Positions 16,676 through 56,327 of a DNA stretch of 64,000 bases are shown piece by piece. Source of the DNA: Desulfuribacillus stibiiarsenatis (GTDB lineage Bacteria > Bacillota > Bacilli > Desulfuribacillales > Desulfuribacillaceae). Both the position numbers and the translations under genes were made by a program. Within the stretch, counting starts at the first letter, position 1. Every line of letters starts with the position of its first letter. The DNA is taken from assembly GCF_001742305.1 (NCBI RefSeq), contig NZ_MJAT01000039.1, forward strand, positions 1-64,000, read 5' to 3'. The notes beneath the pieces were generated by a model. It was not told the origin of the DNA. It made no database searches and saw only the letters and a list, made by a program, of their open reading frames with translations.

Positions 16676-19498
16676 ATGCTAAACATTTCATTACAGGTTA
16701 ATGGGGTTTTGATACAACGTGAAGTAGACGAAAAAATGACATTGCTACAATTTTTACGCGACAACTTAGGCTTATTAGGTGCTAAGAATGGCTGCGCAAA
16801 GGGGCACTGTGGTACTTGTACGATTATTATAGATGGGGAAGCCAAGCGAGCCTGTTTAGTTCGTATGGGGAAAGTCAAGGACGGTTCCGTCATTGAAACC
16901 ATCGAAGGACTTTCGGAAGACGGAGAGCTACATCCGATTCAATCGGCGTTTGTGACAGAAGGTGCGATTCAATGTGGCTTTTGCACGCCGGGAATGGTGT
17001 TAGCGACAAAGGCATTACTGGATAAGAACTTGGAGCCAACAGATGAAGAAATCAAGTTTGCACTAAAGAATAATCTTTGCCGCTGTACGGGCTATGTAAC
17101 GATATTTCAGGCGGTTAGAACAGCAGCAAACATGCTACAGGAAATGAAAAAAGTAAACGAACAGGCAGATCAATATAACGGGAAGGAATTCAATCAATAT
17201 ACCGAATCTCAAGTAATGGGTGTGTCCAAGGTCCGTAAGGATGTTGTCGCAAAGGTGACTGGAAAAGGGATTTTTGCAGACGACTATTATGCAGAAGATA
17301 TGCTATACGGTAGGCTACTATTTAGCACAGAATCCCATGCAGATATTCTAGCAATTGATACGAAGGAAGCAGAGTCACTACCAGGCGTAAAGCTCATTCT
17401 CACGGGCAAGGACATTCCTGGTCGTAATAGCTTTGGATTAATCGTTCCTCAGCAGCCGGTATTAGCAGAAAAGCGGATTCGATATTTAGGAGAAGCAGTG
17501 GCGGCAGTCTTTGCTGAGACGCAGGAAAAAGCCGATGAGGCTGTGAAACGCATTCGTGTTCAATATCAGCCATTACCTGCAGTTTTTTCAGCGGTAGAAG
17601 GCATGGAAGAAACGGCAGTGAAGGTCCATGACGCAGGAAATATCGTGGATCATGTAAAAGTGCGTAAAGGAAATTTAGAAAAAGGCTTTGCCAAAGCTGA
17701 TATTATTATTGAAGGAAACTATTATACACCGGCTATCGAGCATGCGTATCTCGAGCCAGAAGCATGTTTAGTGAAACCTTTATTTGACGGATCTATAGAA
17801 ATCTGGACAGGAAATCAGGGGTCAATACCTTTTCAGGATATGATTGCAAAAAGCTTAGATATGCCGTTAGAAAAAGTTAGAGTGATATATACCCCTTGTG
17901 GTGGCGCATTCGGTGGGAAGGAAGAACCTACGGTACAGATTCATGCCGCACTGGCAGCGATAAAGACAGGACTCCCAGTGAAAATGACGATGACGAGAGA
18001 AGATTCGATTCGCATGTCGACGAAAAGACATGCAGTTCACATATATATGAAACACGGTGTAACGAAAGACGGTAAGCTTGTAGCATTCGAATCAAAAGCG
18101 ATATGCGATGCGGGGGCGTATATGTCTTTAACAAAACCTGTAGTATTCCGAGCAGCCGTTGTTGCCTCAGGTCCATATCAAATACCGAATGTAAAAGCAG
18201 ATTCTTATGGTATCTATACCAATAATAATCCCGCCGGGGCATTTCGAGGATTTGGTAGCACCCAAGTAAGCTTTGCAGCGGAGATACAAATGGATAAATT
18301 GGCGACAGCATTATCGATGAATCCAGTTGAATTCCGTCGCTTAAATGGTCTTGATGTAGGTAAAGAAACGATTACAGGCCAAGTATTACGTGATGGTGTC
18401 GGATACTTAGAGACACTGAATGTAATTGATGAAGCAGTTAAGAGCAAATGGACACAATGGCTCAATGCATCTAAGGAGAAAATAAATAGTAACACAGGTA
18501 CGAAGAAAATTGGCATAGGCTTTGCCAGCTCATATAAAAACGTAGGGTTAGGAACTGGAAAACCAGATTTTGCCGACGCGGCGTTAGAGCTACAAGAGAA
18601 CGGTCGTTTACTCCTAAAAATCGGGGCAACCGATATTGGCCAAGGATCAGATACAGTTATGGCGCAGATTGCAGCGGCAGTTCTGCATATTGATTACGAG
18701 CTCATCGACGTTATTTCTTGTGATACTGCTTTATGTCCTGATGGTGGGATGACTACAGCTTCTCGTCAAACCTATGTGACTGGAAATGCAGTCAAGCTAG
18801 CAGCGGAAGAATGGAAACAAGCTTTAAATCAATTAGCGAATCGTTGTAGTCAACGGACAGATGCCTGTATGCAGTTTCAGGGTATGGCAGTAGAGAAACA
18901 GCAGTCAACGTTAAAGACAATCTACCAATGTGCTAAATCAAAAGGTACGAAACTAGAAGTCCTTACTAGATACAATCCACCAACAACATATCCATTACGT
19001 GCCAGTGCAGACCATGAGGCTGGCGTTACCGTTGAGGAGTTCGATATCCATTACGCGTATTGTTTTGGGACCCATGCTGCATTAGTAGAGGTTGATGAGG
19101 ATACTGGGGAAGTGAAAGTTCTATCGATTTTTGCCGCCCAGGATGTAGGGAAAGCAATTCATCCGCAGAACGTAAAGGGGCAGATTGAAGGTTCAGTAGC
19201 GATGGGTGTCGGGTATGCATTATCGGAAGAATATATCATTCAGGACAATACAATTGTTACAGATACTCTAGCAAAGTTAAAGATTCCTAAAACGTTGGAT
19301 ATACCAGAAATAGAAACATTTATTGTGGAAGTAGATCAGCCAGATGGACCTTTGGGAGCAAAGGGGATGGGCGAGATTCCGATTAACCCAGTAGCACCGG
19401 CAATTGCTAACGCAATATATGATGCAGTTGGTGTTCGTATTCACTCCTTACCAATTAAAGCTAAGGTATTAAAGGAATTGATAGAGCAGAAAGCATAG
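16676..19498 (+). CDS. Selenium-type molybdenum hydroxylase (xanthine dehydrogenase-like, single chain)
   Basis: A 940-residue fusion of an iron-sulfur part and a molybdopterin part. Residues 1-155 hold two [2Fe-2S] sites: a plant-type site (GCAKGHCGTC) and an all-helical site (CGFCTPGMV and CRCTGYV). The rest is the aldehyde oxidase/xanthine dehydrogenase Mo domain, with GGAFGGKEEP, RGFGSTQ and, near the C-terminus, GAKGMGEIP with the catalytic Glu. No FAD domain is present, so electrons must leave through a partner. Length and layout match the XdhD/selenium-dependent XDH group. The maturation genes yqeB, yqeC, mocA and xdhC elsewhere in the window fit a selenium-containing cofactor. Substrate (xanthine or another purine) is inference. 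Confidence 0.88.
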   Translation: MLNISLQVNGVLIQREVDEKMTLLQFLRDNLGLLGAKNGCAKGHCGTCTIIIDGEAKRACLVRMGKVKDGSVIETIEGLSEDGELHPIQSAFVTEGAIQCGFCTPGMVLATKALLDKNLEPTDEEIKFALKNNLCRCTGYVTIFQAVRTAANMLQEMKKVNEQADQYNGKEFNQYTESQVMGVSKVRKDVVAKVTGKGIFADDYYAEDMLYGRLLFSTESHADILAIDTKEAESLPGVKLILTGKDIPGRNSFGLIVPQQPVLAEKRIRYLGEAVAAVFAETQEKADEAVKRIRVQYQPLPAVFSAVEGMEETAVKVHDAGNIVDHVKVRKGNLEKGFAKADIIIEGNYYTPAIEHAYLEPEACLVKPLFDGSIEIWTGNQGSIPFQDMIAKSLDMPLEKVRVIYTPCGGAFGGKEEPTVQIHAALAAIKTGLPVKMTMTREDSIRMSTKRHAVHIYMKHGVTKDGKLVAFESKAICDAGAYMSLTKPVVFRAAVVASGPYQIPNVKADSYGIYTNNNPAGAFRGFGSTQVSFAAEIQMDKLATALSMNPVEFRRLNGLDVGKETITGQVLRDGVGYLETLNVIDEAVKSKWTQWLNASKEKINSNTGTKKIGIGFASSYKNVGLGTGKPDFADAALELQENGRLLLKIGATDIGQGSDTVMAQIAAAVLHIDYELIDVISCDTALCPDGGMTTASRQTYVTGNAVKLAAEEWKQALNQLANRCSQRTDACMQFQGMAVEKQQSTLKTIYQCAKSKGTKLEVLTRYNPPTTYPLRASADHEAGVTVEEFDIHYAYCFGTHAALVEVDEDTGEVKVLSIFAAQDVGKAIHPQNVKGQIEGSVAMGVGYALSEEYIIQDNTIVTDTLAKLKIPKTLDIPEIETFIVEVDQPDGPLGAKGMGEIPINPVAPAIANAIYDAVGVRIHSLPIKAKVLKELIEQKA

Positions 19499-49933: not shown

Positions 49934-50920
49934 CTATTGAATACTCACTTTTTGCATTTCACTCTTTTTTGCGATTAACTCTGCCGCTATACTAATGGCG
50001 ATTTCCTCAGGGGTCTCTGCCCCAATAGAAAGTCCAACAGGACAGGTAACCTTTTCTAATTCCTCTTGTGCAATACCATCCTCTATCAGTGCTTGATAAA
50101 TTACCTGCTTCTTTCGATGACTGCCAATCATACCTATATAGCAAGCGTCACTTGCTATGACTTGCTGTAAAACAGCCATATCATATAGATGGCCACGGGT
50201 TACGATGATTACATAACAGCCATCACAAATGGTAATTTCTCTAGAAAAGTCTTCTAGTGAAGGTACAACTATCGTTTGTGAAGTAGGGAATAACGTCGAG
50301 TTTGCGTATTCTGGACGATCATCCACTACCACAACATCAAAACCTATCGTCTTTAGCACTGGAGCTAGTTTTTGACTAACATGCCCAGCGCCAAAGATGT
50401 ACACAGTAGGATTCGGTACAATCGAATCCACCCAATACGCGTCAGCCTTGAGAACAGGCATTTCTGCGGGATTCCCGACTTGTAAGACAAGTGAATCTTG
50501 GGAAATTTCAGTGCCTGTAATTGGGAGTAAGTGATATAGAGATACGGTTTTCTTCCCTTTCAGGGACGTTACAATCTTCTCGAAAACAGTGAGATGAGCT
50601 GGATTTTTCGCATTAATAAACTGCAATAAAACGTCAACGCTACCGCCGCAAATCATTCTCCGTTCCTTCGCATTCGGACTCGTTAAGTCGAAATGTTTTA
50701 GCATAGGAAAGGAGGTATCCCAAAGCGTTGGCGCCAAACCTTGTACTTGCCCCTCAAGGGAGCCGCCACCAATCGTACCGATGATCGAACCATCTTGTTT
50801 CACGGCCATTTTTGCCCCTGTGTTTCTCGGCGCGGAACCTCTCCGCCGAACAATCGATGTTAGGACAAAGCTGTCTCCTCTTTTCAACATACTATATAGC
50901 TCTTCATAGAATGTTATCAT
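49934..50920 (-). CDS. xdhC: XdhC-family molybdenum hydroxylase maturation factor
   Basis: A 328-residue XdhC/CoxI protein. These proteins protect and insert the sulfurated (or selenated) molybdenum cofactor into xanthine dehydrogenases. Visible are IGTIGGGSLEGQVQ, RMICGGSVDVLLQ (Cys about residue 90), and a Rossmann domain PTVYIFGAGHVSQKLAP (about 170-190). It ends the four-gene operon with yqeB, mocA and yqeC. GGAGAGG supports the start at 50920. Confidence 0.92.
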   Translation of the reverse strand: MITFYEELYSMLKRGDSFVLTSIVRRRGSAPRNTGAKMAVKQDGSIIGTIGGGSLEGQVQGLAPTLWDTSFPMLKHFDLTSPNAKERRMICGGSVDVLLQFINAKNPAHLTVFEKIVTSLKGKKTVSLYHLLPITGTEISQDSLVLQVGNPAEMPVLKADAYWVDSIVPNPTVYIFGAGHVSQKLAPVLKTIGFDVVVVDDRPEYANSTLFPTSQTIVVPSLEDFSREITICDGCYVIIVTRGHLYDMAVLQQVIASDACYIGMIGSHRKKQVIYQALIEDGIAQEELEKVTCPVGLSIGAETPEEIAISIAAELIAKKSEMQKVSIQ

Positions 50921-50957
50921 TGAATTGAACCTCTCCATTTCAGTAAATTATGCATTA

Positions 50958-51788
50958 TCAGGGCATATCTGTTAAGTACAGGATTGCTTCTAGTAATCCA
51001 CCGGCAACAGCCCTTGCCTTGTCAGAAATTGTGTAACAATACTGCTCTTGACTACGAGGGTCTACGTCAGCTATTTTCATACCCTTAACCACGTTAATGT
51101 CATGATAGATTACTCCGCGCAGCATACCGTCGATTAAGGATATCACTGGAGTATTGTCCACGTATCCAATCGTTTGGCCTTTTGCAACTTGCGAGCCTAT
51201 CGCTATACTGCAATAAAAGGTTCCATGATGCGGCGCGCGTAGGACACGATCGACGCTATAGCCTAGAATATCACCAGGAACTTTCGTATCAGCTTGCGCA
51301 GTTCCGTTATAAATTACTTTTCCTAAGTAATGGCCGCGGTTCGTTTCAATGACCGCATGCACATCTTGTCCAGCCGTATAGCCAGGACCTATGCCAATGA
51401 CAATCGGTGCCATTTGCCGGGTAAGACCGAGACTTCTCTTTGATAGAGTTGCATCCACTACGGCATGCAGATCGTAGCTCGCTAACAATTGAGTAGGTAG
51501 TGATCGTAGGATAGTAGCGTGTTCATCGATTAGAATAGGAATATGTCGGTTGTTAAGAAGGCTAATAACATCTTGGCAATCAAAGGCTAGCTTTGCCGTT
51601 ACTTGTTCGATGGTAATGGAACCGTCATAGACAGCCTGCGCGAATGAAACTGTTCGGCGAATCATTGTTGGCTTAGGAATTTCTAGGATCATCACAGAGA
51701 ACCCTGCCATATGCAAGCGGTGTGCAACTCCTGTTGCAATATCACCGCCGCCTCGAATTACAATTAACTTTTTCCTAAACAATCCCAT
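50958..51788 (-). CDS. yqeB: YqeB, selenium-dependent molybdenum hydroxylase system protein
   Basis: A 276-residue protein of the YqeB (EF2563) family with an N-terminal nucleotide-binding start (LIVIRGGGDIATGVAHRL). YqeB occurs only with selenium-dependent molybdenum hydroxylases. Its neighbours yqeC, mocA and xdhC complete the set. The hydroxylase itself is probably the 940-residue protein at 16676-19498. AGGTAGGTG precedes ATG 51788. Confidence 0.92.
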   Translation of the reverse strand: MGLFRKKLIVIRGGGDIATGVAHRLHMAGFSVMILEIPKPTMIRRTVSFAQAVYDGSITIEQVTAKLAFDCQDVISLLNNRHIPILIDEHATILRSLPTQLLASYDLHAVVDATLSKRSLGLTRQMAPIVIGIGPGYTAGQDVHAVIETNRGHYLGKVIYNGTAQADTKVPGDILGYSVDRVLRAPHHGTFYCSIAIGSQVAKGQTIGYVDNTPVISLIDGMLRGVIYHDINVVKGMKIADVDPRSQEQYCYTISDKARAVAGGLLEAILYLTDMP

Positions 51789-51895
51789 GTGAATCACCTA
51801 CCTTTATTCGATATTCCACTTCTAGTTCATGTACACTTTTATTCCTGTACAATTTATTCTTTATACCATTTTTATTCCGTATGCCATTTTATTTC

Positions 51896-52540
51896 TTATT
51901 TCCAATGGTGGTACTCTATTTCTGTATCAATATCTACAAAACACTTATGGTCGTGCCAAGGTAATTCATAGACAAAAGATTGAGCCATGTGCATTAAAGC
52001 TCTGCCACCTAGGTCGCCTTGCAAATCCATCAGCTCTTTACGCCATCCGGCTCCAAATAAAACTGGACTCTGTCGCTCTCCAGCAAAGACAGGGGCAATA
52101 ATGGTGTTGCGTTCTTTATCGTTCATCGAATCAAATAGATTCTGTATAGCAAGAAGTATGTCTTTATCTATGAAAGGCTGGTCACCTTGAATGAATAGAT
52201 AGCCGTCTATATGAGGGTCGAAGCTCTCAGTTGCTATTTTCACAGAAGTACTCTTTTCGTGAGATGAGACTGTGTGTATAGATAGCGGCTGATTAGTCTT
52301 CATATGTAAAGATAGTACTTCATCAGTTTCAGTAGTCGTAAGACTACATAGTATATCTTGGACGGGGTGGGTAGTTTCATGATTGCATATTACCACGATT
52401 TGCGACCATGGAATCTGTAAGACTGTTCTAATAACATGTTCAATCATCGGCTTGCCTTTGATTGGTAGCAGTAGTTTCTGTGTCCCCATTCTAGTACTAT
52501 TTCCAGCAGCCATGATAGCAACGCCGATGGTTTTGCTCAT
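51896..52540 (-). CDS. mocA: MocA-like molybdenum cofactor cytidylyltransferase
   Basis: A 214-residue nucleotidyltransferase (MobA/MocA fold). The nucleotide motif is AIMAAGNSTRMGTQKLLLP, with QGDQPFI as the metal site. It probably converts MPT cofactor to the cytosine dinucleotide form used by XDH-type enzymes. Confidence 0.9.
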   Translation of the reverse strand: MSKTIGVAIMAAGNSTRMGTQKLLLPIKGKPMIEHVIRTVLQIPWSQIVVICNHETTHPVQDILCSLTTTETDEVLSLHMKTNQPLSIHTVSSHEKSTSVKIATESFDPHIDGYLFIQGDQPFIDKDILLAIQNLFDSMNDKERNTIIAPVFAGERQSPVLFGAGWRKELMDLQGDLGGRALMHMAQSFVYELPWHDHKCFVDIDTEIEYHHWK

Positions 52541-52617
52541 CCTAATCCCTCTTTAAACTTTTTTGGTCTGACGCATAGTGGATCACTCTATATGCTTATA
52601 TCAAATAGAAGCGGCGG

Positions 52618-53478
52618 TTATAATAGACGATTGGTTGTAATAATTGATAGCGGCCGCATAGCAGTTCCAAATCCAGTGGTAATTACAATACTGTCTAATT
52701 CTATACTGTCTAATACTATACCGTCCGACTCCACACTGTTTAATTTATGTTGTCCGTAAGCATTTGAAAGTGCTTCGCGGATGGAATGCTCTAATTTTTG
52801 AATAGTGTGAGTCCCGCAACAGGCATTAGCACCACTTAATACTAAGACTTTTCTGCCTTTGGTGCGGGCAAAGATTCCGTTCGGATGCACAGCTAGTTCT
52901 ATGATATCCTGGAGTGTAACGATTGAATTCTCCAATGTATTAAGAACAAGGGATACCTCGGCAAGTCGATGGGTAATCGCATGATTCAAAGGCATACCGA
53001 TCGCTTGTAAACTGAGTACTCCTAGCGTAACCTTTGTCAAGTCGGGTACCACTGGTTCATGCTCAGCAGGAGCTTTTAACAAACGATGGTTGGCACCATC
53101 GCCTTCTACTAGGAAATGAAGGCTCGGGAACTCATCAGCTAAGGTTTGATAGATTTGATCAATATGCTCTTTACTATGACCGACGACCTTCTGCAATTCG
53201 TAACGCTTACCCCATCCAGCACATTGAAAGTGTGTAAGAAAACGTTGAATGTATCGCGCGCTTTTATCAACATCTGATATAATAATAGTAGGCAAAGGCA
53301 TATGGGTATCGATATGTAATTGTGGAGCTAGCATCCGCGTAGTAGTTGTTAGCACCAATGGTAGGCGCAAGTTATAAAGTTCCAAGGCAACGCTTTGTAA
53401 TAGAGAGGTTTTGCCACCAGCTCCTACAGCAGTATAAATCCCTGATTGCGGAATTGCTAAAGAATCTAATAGATTCAC
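52618..53478 (-). CDS. yqeC: YqeC, selenium cofactor biosynthesis protein
   Basis: A 286-residue P-loop protein of the YqeC family (GAGGKTSLL, about residues 19-27), linked to selenium-dependent molybdenum hydroxylases. The LVEGDGANHRLLKAP and LSGANACCG motifs are typical. The C-terminal part has an unusual Asp/Ser-rich near-repeat (SDGIVLDSIELDSIVI). It starts at GTG and is the first gene of the operon. Confidence 0.9.
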   Translation of the reverse strand: MNLLDSLAIPQSGIYTAVGAGGKTSLLQSVALELYNLRLPLVLTTTTRMLAPQLHIDTHMPLPTIIISDVDKSARYIQRFLTHFQCAGWGKRYELQKVVGHSKEHIDQIYQTLADEFPSLHFLVEGDGANHRLLKAPAEHEPVVPDLTKVTLGVLSLQAIGMPLNHAITHRLAEVSLVLNTLENSIVTLQDIIELAVHPNGIFARTKGRKVLVLSGANACCGTHTIQKLEHSIREALSNAYGQHKLNSVESDGIVLDSIELDSIVITTGFGTAMRPLSIITTNRLL

Positions 53479-55222: not shown

Positions 55223-55699
<477 letters not shown>

Positions 55700-56197
55700 T
55701 TATCGATATTTTTTCATCTCTTCTTCGATGGATGCACGTAATAGTTCATCTTCGATTTCGTCTTCTTCGGTTCTCTTCTTGGAAACCTTTGGTGCATTGG
55801 CCATTCTTTCTTCGCGGTCTTTAATGTAACGGTATATGAAATACCCTGCCGCCGCAATACCTACGAAAGGTAGCGTCCATACTAATAAGTTAAATCCAGA
55901 GAACGGTGGTGATATTAAGACAGTTGCTCCATATTTTTTTACAAAAAGTTTCTTTATCTCGTCTTTCGTGTGCCCTTCACGCAATAACTGTTTAATTTCT
56001 TCTCGTTTTTGTATAGAACCACCCGACGGGCAGTCAATTAGAGGAACGCCTCAATCAACAGAGAAGAATAAGTCAACAACATCGCGATATACTTCATAAG
56101 GGACATCTTCCTCAACGGCTAGTACCATACCAGGGTTTAATAGAGAAATTAATAAAGCCCCTGTGAATATTAGAGAAAATAGCTTTGTCGCTTTCAT
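55700..56197 (-). CDS. CcmH-like cytochrome c maturation protein with in-frame UGA (putative selenoprotein)
   Basis: The frame from ATG 56197 (GGAGG upstream) to 55700 has 165 codons and one internal TGA, codon 49 (56053-56051). Residues 1-27 are a signal peptide. Then come VVDLFFSVD, the TGA, GVPLIDCPSGGSIQKREEIK, and the family C-terminus (ISPPFSGFNLLVWTLPFV with one transmembrane helix). CcmH/CycL proteins have a C-x(n)-C thiol pair. The TGA sits at the first Cys and the second Cys is 7 residues later. A hairpin (ACTGCCC, GTC loop, GGGTGGT) begins 16 nt after the TGA, where a bacterial SECIS is expected. I interpret codon 49 as selenocysteine; a recent nonsense mutation is the alternative. 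Confidence 0.75.
56018..56034 (-). promoter_or_regulatory. SECIS-like hairpin after the in-frame UGA
   Basis: On the minus strand ACTGCCC and GGGTGGT form seven pairs (two G-U) closed by a GUC loop. The hairpin starts 16 nt after the TGA at 56051-56053. Distance and loop guanosine are compatible with SelB-binding elements, but the fold is small and recognition by SelB is not proven. Confidence 0.45.
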
Positions 56198-56327
56198 GTC
56201 TTACCTCCAATACTTCAAACTGTTAAACATTATATCATAAATTCGGAAAATCTATTAACGAGCATTTGTGTCAAAACAGTGAACTTTTTTTGTCGCATTC
56301 TCTTCACCGAAGCAACGATAGTCTAGT

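Follow-up and report, generated by a model that had tools for sequence, protein, structure and literature searches.

A CcmH-type apocytochrome c thiol oxidoreductase with a putative selenocysteine in Desulfuribacillus stibiiarsenatis

A 64,000-nucleotide stretch of D. stibiiarsenatis contig NZ_MJAT01000039.1 (the window; G+C content 39.0%) contains a ccmH gene with a single in-frame TGA codon. With a probability of about 94%, this gene encodes a CcmH of the NrfF/CycL type, an apocytochrome c thiol oxidoreductase with selenocysteine (Sec) in place of the first Cys of the C-x6-C pair of Bacillota. The initial annotation had proposed a selenocysteine-containing CcmH from the window sequence, and that reading is supported at the level of sequence by retention of the TGA in a second genus, by Cys-containing homologs, and by the presence of selA, selB, selC, and selD.

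The ccmH gene and its surroundings

A frame of 165 codons, interrupted only by the TGA at codon 49, had been described with no strand given; it lies on the minus strand (Table 1), and the plus strand of 55700-56197 contains many stops. With TGA translated as U, the product opens with MKATKLFSLIFTGALLISLLNPGMVLAVEEDVPYEVYRDVVDLFFSVDUGVPLIDCPSGGSIQKREEIKQLL and closes with KKYR. The expected layout is borne out, with a signal peptide ahead of the TGA, seven residues from U49 to the remaining Cys, C56, and a CcmH C-terminus behind it, where the Pfam CcmH family (PF03918) matches residues 55-143 at 58.7 bits (cut-off, 25). The TATAAT-like box lies approximately 30 bases upstream of the start codon, and sequence comparison finds both this stretch and the GGAGG also in G001, the nearest relative examined, which belongs to the same family as the source genome (G000) and to a different genus. 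The tadA gene begins 18 bases downstream of ccmH and is not functionally part of the feature described here.

Table 1. Features of the ccmH locus, in window coordinates
Feature	Position	Strand	Details	Comparison
ccmH gene	55700..56197	-	ATG 56197-56195, TAA 55702-55700; 165 residues, putative Sec at 49	Frame kept in G001
In-frame TGA, codon 49, putative Sec	56051..56053	-		Kept in G001; Cys in sister clade
Cys56 codon, presumed partner of Sec49 (UxxxxxxC)	56030..56032	-		Invariant in alignment A4
Putative bacterial SECIS hairpin	56017..56035	-	8-bp stem, apical loop GUC (56027-56025), UGA-to-loop 23 nt, -8.5 kcal/mol	
Shine-Dalgarno GGAGG	56204..56208	-	6 nt 5' of the ATG, which is upstream of the TGA	
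TATAAT -10-like box within TTTATGATATAATG	56229..56234	-	Putative promoter	TTTATGATATAATG common to G001
tadA (tRNA adenosine deaminase)	55223..55681	-	Next downstream gene	Same order in G001

An internal TTG start yields a 94-residue frame, as would be needed if the locus comprised two genes, one for a 48-residue exported peptide and the other for an internally started C-terminal CcmH protein. Such an arrangement is exceedingly improbable: the homologs are one protein of the same length and layout, the TGA falls exactly at a conserved Cys, and a CcmH devoid of signal peptide and active site makes no sense.

Predicted structure and relation to known proteins

An AlphaFold model (pLDDT 80) predicts a helix bundle and a C-terminal membrane anchor helix (residues 104-134). 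The best Foldseek matches are 2KW0 and 2HL7 (probability 1.00, E ~0.01), the N-terminal domains of E. coli and P. aeruginosa CcmH, to which the protein is related in sequence and fold. U49 and C56 are placed in the predicted loop joining domain helices 1 and 2, as in 2HL7. However, 2KW0 and 2HL7 carry the classical CxxC motif, whereas the D. stibiiarsenatis protein has U-x6-C and no CcmI/TPR domain. In a profile alignment, the U column adjoins the second, C-terminal Cys of the classical CxxC. The earlier designation of the TGA position as the first active-site cysteine is therefore right for the Bacillota C-x6-C type only, and not for classical CxxC proteins.

In architecture, the protein resembles the two-Cys CcmH/CycL/Ccl2 proteins of Bacillota (PF03918), with which it agrees in length and in the spacing of the redox pair, and which likewise have a signal peptide, a redox loop, a helix bundle, a single transmembrane helix, and a C-terminal tail. 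The protein differs from these in having a putative Sec for the first Cys, in having one residue fewer immediately ahead of that position, and in being encoded away from the ccm cluster. NrfF serves the nitrite reductase NrfA as a heme lyase subunit. Its model, TIGR03147, is the only one in NCBIfam with a notable match, at 27 bits against a cut-off of 159, so the protein is not NrfF by that test. Sec in place of a redox Cys of a thiol oxidoreductase is a feature in common with the DsbA-, DsbG-, TlpA-, and thioredoxin-like selenoproteins (PMC13188914). In contrast to their thioredoxin-fold UxxC or CxxU arrangement, the protein described here combines U-x6-C with a predicted helix bundle lacking the thioredoxin fold.

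Cysteine at the TGA position in other CcmH proteins

Searches in which stop codons were read through drew on 399 genomes from the class and 398 from the phylum, approximately 800 in total; a repeat draw from the phylum largely overlapped the first. CcmH matches were obtained in 30 class and 47 phylum genomes. Among the approximately 800 genomes searched within the phylum, a TGA-bearing CcmH occurs only in the source genus and the genus of G001. One weak match with four stops (L059, E=5.6e-4) was rejected as noise. A search of genome contigs with the two Sec proteins returned no relative outside their clade, and the wider alignment has no segment sufficiently conserved for such a search. A degenerate TGA-specific DNA pattern gave two matches in GTDB contigs, neither of which encodes CcmH, and searches centered on other orders added no new genomes.

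In alignment A4, all eight other proteins (8/8) have Cys in both the U49 and the C56 columns. In a maximum-likelihood tree, the Sec pair is grouped with eight proteins that form a clade and represent six genera (support 95/83). This sister clade has the motif PD-x-CGxxLx(D/E)CP, in which the two Cys match U49 and C56 in position and spacing. The TGA thus stands where an invariant Cys stands in the sister clade, as the initial annotation had anticipated in placing it at the expected thiol position and in calling for a comparison with homologs. A single Cys-to-Sec change within the family is the simplest history.

SelB scores over its cut-off in 28 of the 33 genomes tested, and most genomes with a Cys-type CcmH have it, so Sec machinery does not predict a Sec-containing CcmH. 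The machinery appears to be available to the Cys-type relatives, with Sec apparently taken up in these two genera only.

Separately, several CcmH homologs of the same class (L026, L044-L054) lack one or both motif Cys, as in APGDQNTMTVATS. The existence of such proteins suggests that some members of the family may work without thiol redox chemistry.

Retention of the TGA in a second genus

The CcmH of G001 is 62% identical in amino-acid sequence to that of the source genome and has one TGA, at the same codon. The neighboring tadA, the putative promoter, and the Shine-Dalgarno site are likewise kept. No other stop codon or frameshift is present at this place, and G001, the one close relative examined, answers in the affirmative the question raised at the outset of whether relatives keep the TGA. 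A sequencing or assembly error that turned a Cys codon (TGC or TGT) into TGA would need to alter only one base. As the TGA is present in two separate genomes with ccmH genes that differ at many sites, such an error is extremely unlikely.

Between the two genes, 44 of 100 codons for the same amino acid are identical, and synonymous sites are therefore near saturation. Before the TGA, dN is 0.43 and dS 3.59 (dN/dS ~0.12); after it, dN is 0.22 and dS is saturated. These values place ccmH under purifying selection on either side of the TGA.

The genomic context of the pathway bears on whether ccmH could be a pseudogene. The ccmABCEF genes are located on another contig (L110), apart from ccmH, and ccdA lies near selB (L089). 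The CcmE frame (L110:11839-12255) contains RCPSKYEG, the CPSKY form that characterizes System I*, in which CcmE has Cys in CPSKY instead of His (PMC3601427). The source genome thus resembles the System I* organisms, Desulfovibrio and some Bacillota, in having ccmABCEF with a CPSKY-type CcmE. Approximately two-thirds of the System I* bacteria examined have no CcmH (PMC3601427), whereas the source genome retains one, in its putative Sec form. The source genome and G001 each yielded a single CcmH. Directly adjoining the ccm genes are a gene for an FtrD-like (PF10080) protein and ABC-transporter-like genes (L110:2373-6147).

A nonsense-mutated, decaying ccmH, with cytochromes matured without CcmH, would be compatible with the CPSKY-type CcmE, with the ability of System I* to function without CcmH (PMC3601427), and with the separation of ccmH from the other ccm genes. 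It would have to be reconciled with the persistence of the TGA and an otherwise intact frame in two genera at near-saturated synonymous divergence, with purifying selection both before and after the TGA and no other lesion, and with the kept promoter candidate and Shine-Dalgarno site. Because dN/dS is low and the TGA has been kept over this divergence, decay is strongly disfavored and very unlikely.

A candidate SECIS hairpin

The hairpin reported to begin 16 nt downstream of the TGA was found as described, with the sequence GACUGCCC-GUC-GGGUGGUU and a loop of 3 nt (Table 1). Bacterial SECIS elements are defined by a loop of 3-9 nt with G in the first two loop positions, a stem of 4-16 bp, a UGA-to-loop distance of 16-37 nt, and a minimum free energy of <= -7.5 (PMC13188914); the source-genome hairpin agrees with all four rules. 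Under the published spacing and loop rules, equally good hairpins follow 17 of the 2227 TGA trinucleotides (0.8%) on both strands of the window. Rfam matched no family at the ccmH stretch.

In G001, the 5' arm is identical, U-G is replaced by U-A and G-U by G-C, and the 8-bp version contains one C-A mismatch. Taken alone, this hairpin is weaker (-5.6 kcal/mol) and follows the published loop and energy rules only partly. Scoring against a bacterial SECIS model, suggested at the outset, thus favors the element in the source genome and is equivocal for G001. As the undoubted hairpin of an FdnG-type formate dehydrogenase in the source genome itself scores only -4.1 under strict contiguous-stem scoring, the weak G001 hairpin is a weak objection. 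Directly after the TGA, 7 of 8 same-residue codons that could vary synonymously are identical, against 40% in the rest of the gene (P ~0.009, from a small sample), as would be expected if the RNA itself were constrained. Retention of the TGA in G001 at this divergence is more decisive evidence than the hairpin.

Selenium machinery and other selenium-related genes

All four selenocysteine genes, including selB and selC, the lack of which would have spoken against Sec, are found in the source genome: SelA (586 bits), SelB (411-412 bits), SelD (383 bits), and a tRNA-Sec (selC) with anticodon TCA (61 bits). SelB is also encoded in G001. Two formate dehydrogenases of the source genome have in-frame TGA codons (CARLUHSS and QARIUHSS). 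Five long frames in the window end in TGA, and the codon is therefore not reassigned wholesale. Non-specific suppression of the UGA in ccmH, or its decoding as Cys, Trp, or Gly, has nothing specific in its favor and is very improbable when TGA acts as a general stop, a full Sec machinery and other UGA-containing Sec genes are present, and Sec is the usual counterpart of Cys at redox sites.

The selD gene (L090:10524-11618) has an in-frame TGA of its own (AGUGCKIG), and its start is placed downstream of that codon by ordinary ORF calling. An apparent selenoprotein CcmC was rejected, as the flagged TGA came from a match extending upstream of the CcmC start.

Further selenium-related genes were observed. 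The window includes selenium-cofactor genes at 49934-53478 (minus strand) and 16676-19498 (plus strand), among them yqeB (349 bits) and yqeC (118 bits), both over cut-off, and a gene for an XdhC-family factor. The same set includes a gene for a MocA-like protein, which scores under its cut-off, and one for a xanthine dehydrogenase-like protein, which has the selenium-dependent type as its best model, though under the cut-off of that model. A tRNA 2-selenouridine synthase, MnmH (L110:14097-15272, 370 bits), adjoins the ccm cluster. Together with Sec and the selenium-cofactor genes, MnmH appears to complete the set of three known selenium-use traits in this genome.

Proposed mechanism

In the proposed mechanism, SelB carrying Sec-tRNA(Sec) would bind the hairpin just 3' of UGA codon 49 and insert Sec. 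The signal peptide would export CcmH, leaving its small helix-bundle domain outside the membrane, with one transmembrane helix as anchor. Sec49 would pair with Cys56 through a selenenylsulfide, and electrons would come from CcdA and a thioredoxin-like partner.

CcmH and CcmF attach heme to apocytochromes, and a role in reducing or holding the CXXCH thiols has been ascribed to CcmH (PMC3601427, PMC3884852). Sec49 may act on apocytochromes either by reducing their CXXCH disulfide or by keeping them as mixed selenenylsulfides; CcmF would then attach heme delivered by the CPSKY-type CcmE of System I*. As the U column adjoins the second Cys of CxxC, the exposed nucleophile (PMC3884852), it is plausible from the alignment that Sec is the residue attacking the apocytochrome.

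Implications

CcmH is absent from the 119 prokaryotic selenoprotein families of a 2026 catalog (PMC13188914), in agreement with the earlier impression that it is not a described selenoprotein family. Searches of the open-access literature, assessed by title and abstract, yielded no report of a selenoprotein CcmH or of Sec in cytochrome c biogenesis. If true, the Sec-containing CcmH would constitute a new selenoprotein family, and would bring selenium chemistry, in a non-thioredoxin fold, to the point in cytochrome c assembly at which heme is attached. As gene finders lose the N-terminal part of the protein including the active site, its annotation needs correcting.

The finding also bears on the role of CcmH in apocytochrome c reduction, both whether it has one and by what route, with Sec marking a reactive position; its higher reactivity and trappable adducts would make it a tool for studying the CcmH mechanism. 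Cytochrome assembly would be tied to selenium supply. It can be proposed tentatively, at somewhat below even odds, that this family of anaerobes needs selenium for all maturation of c-type cytochromes, the sole CcmH attacking the apocytochrome disulfide through Sec. Were this so, selenium supply would limit cytochrome-based respiration.
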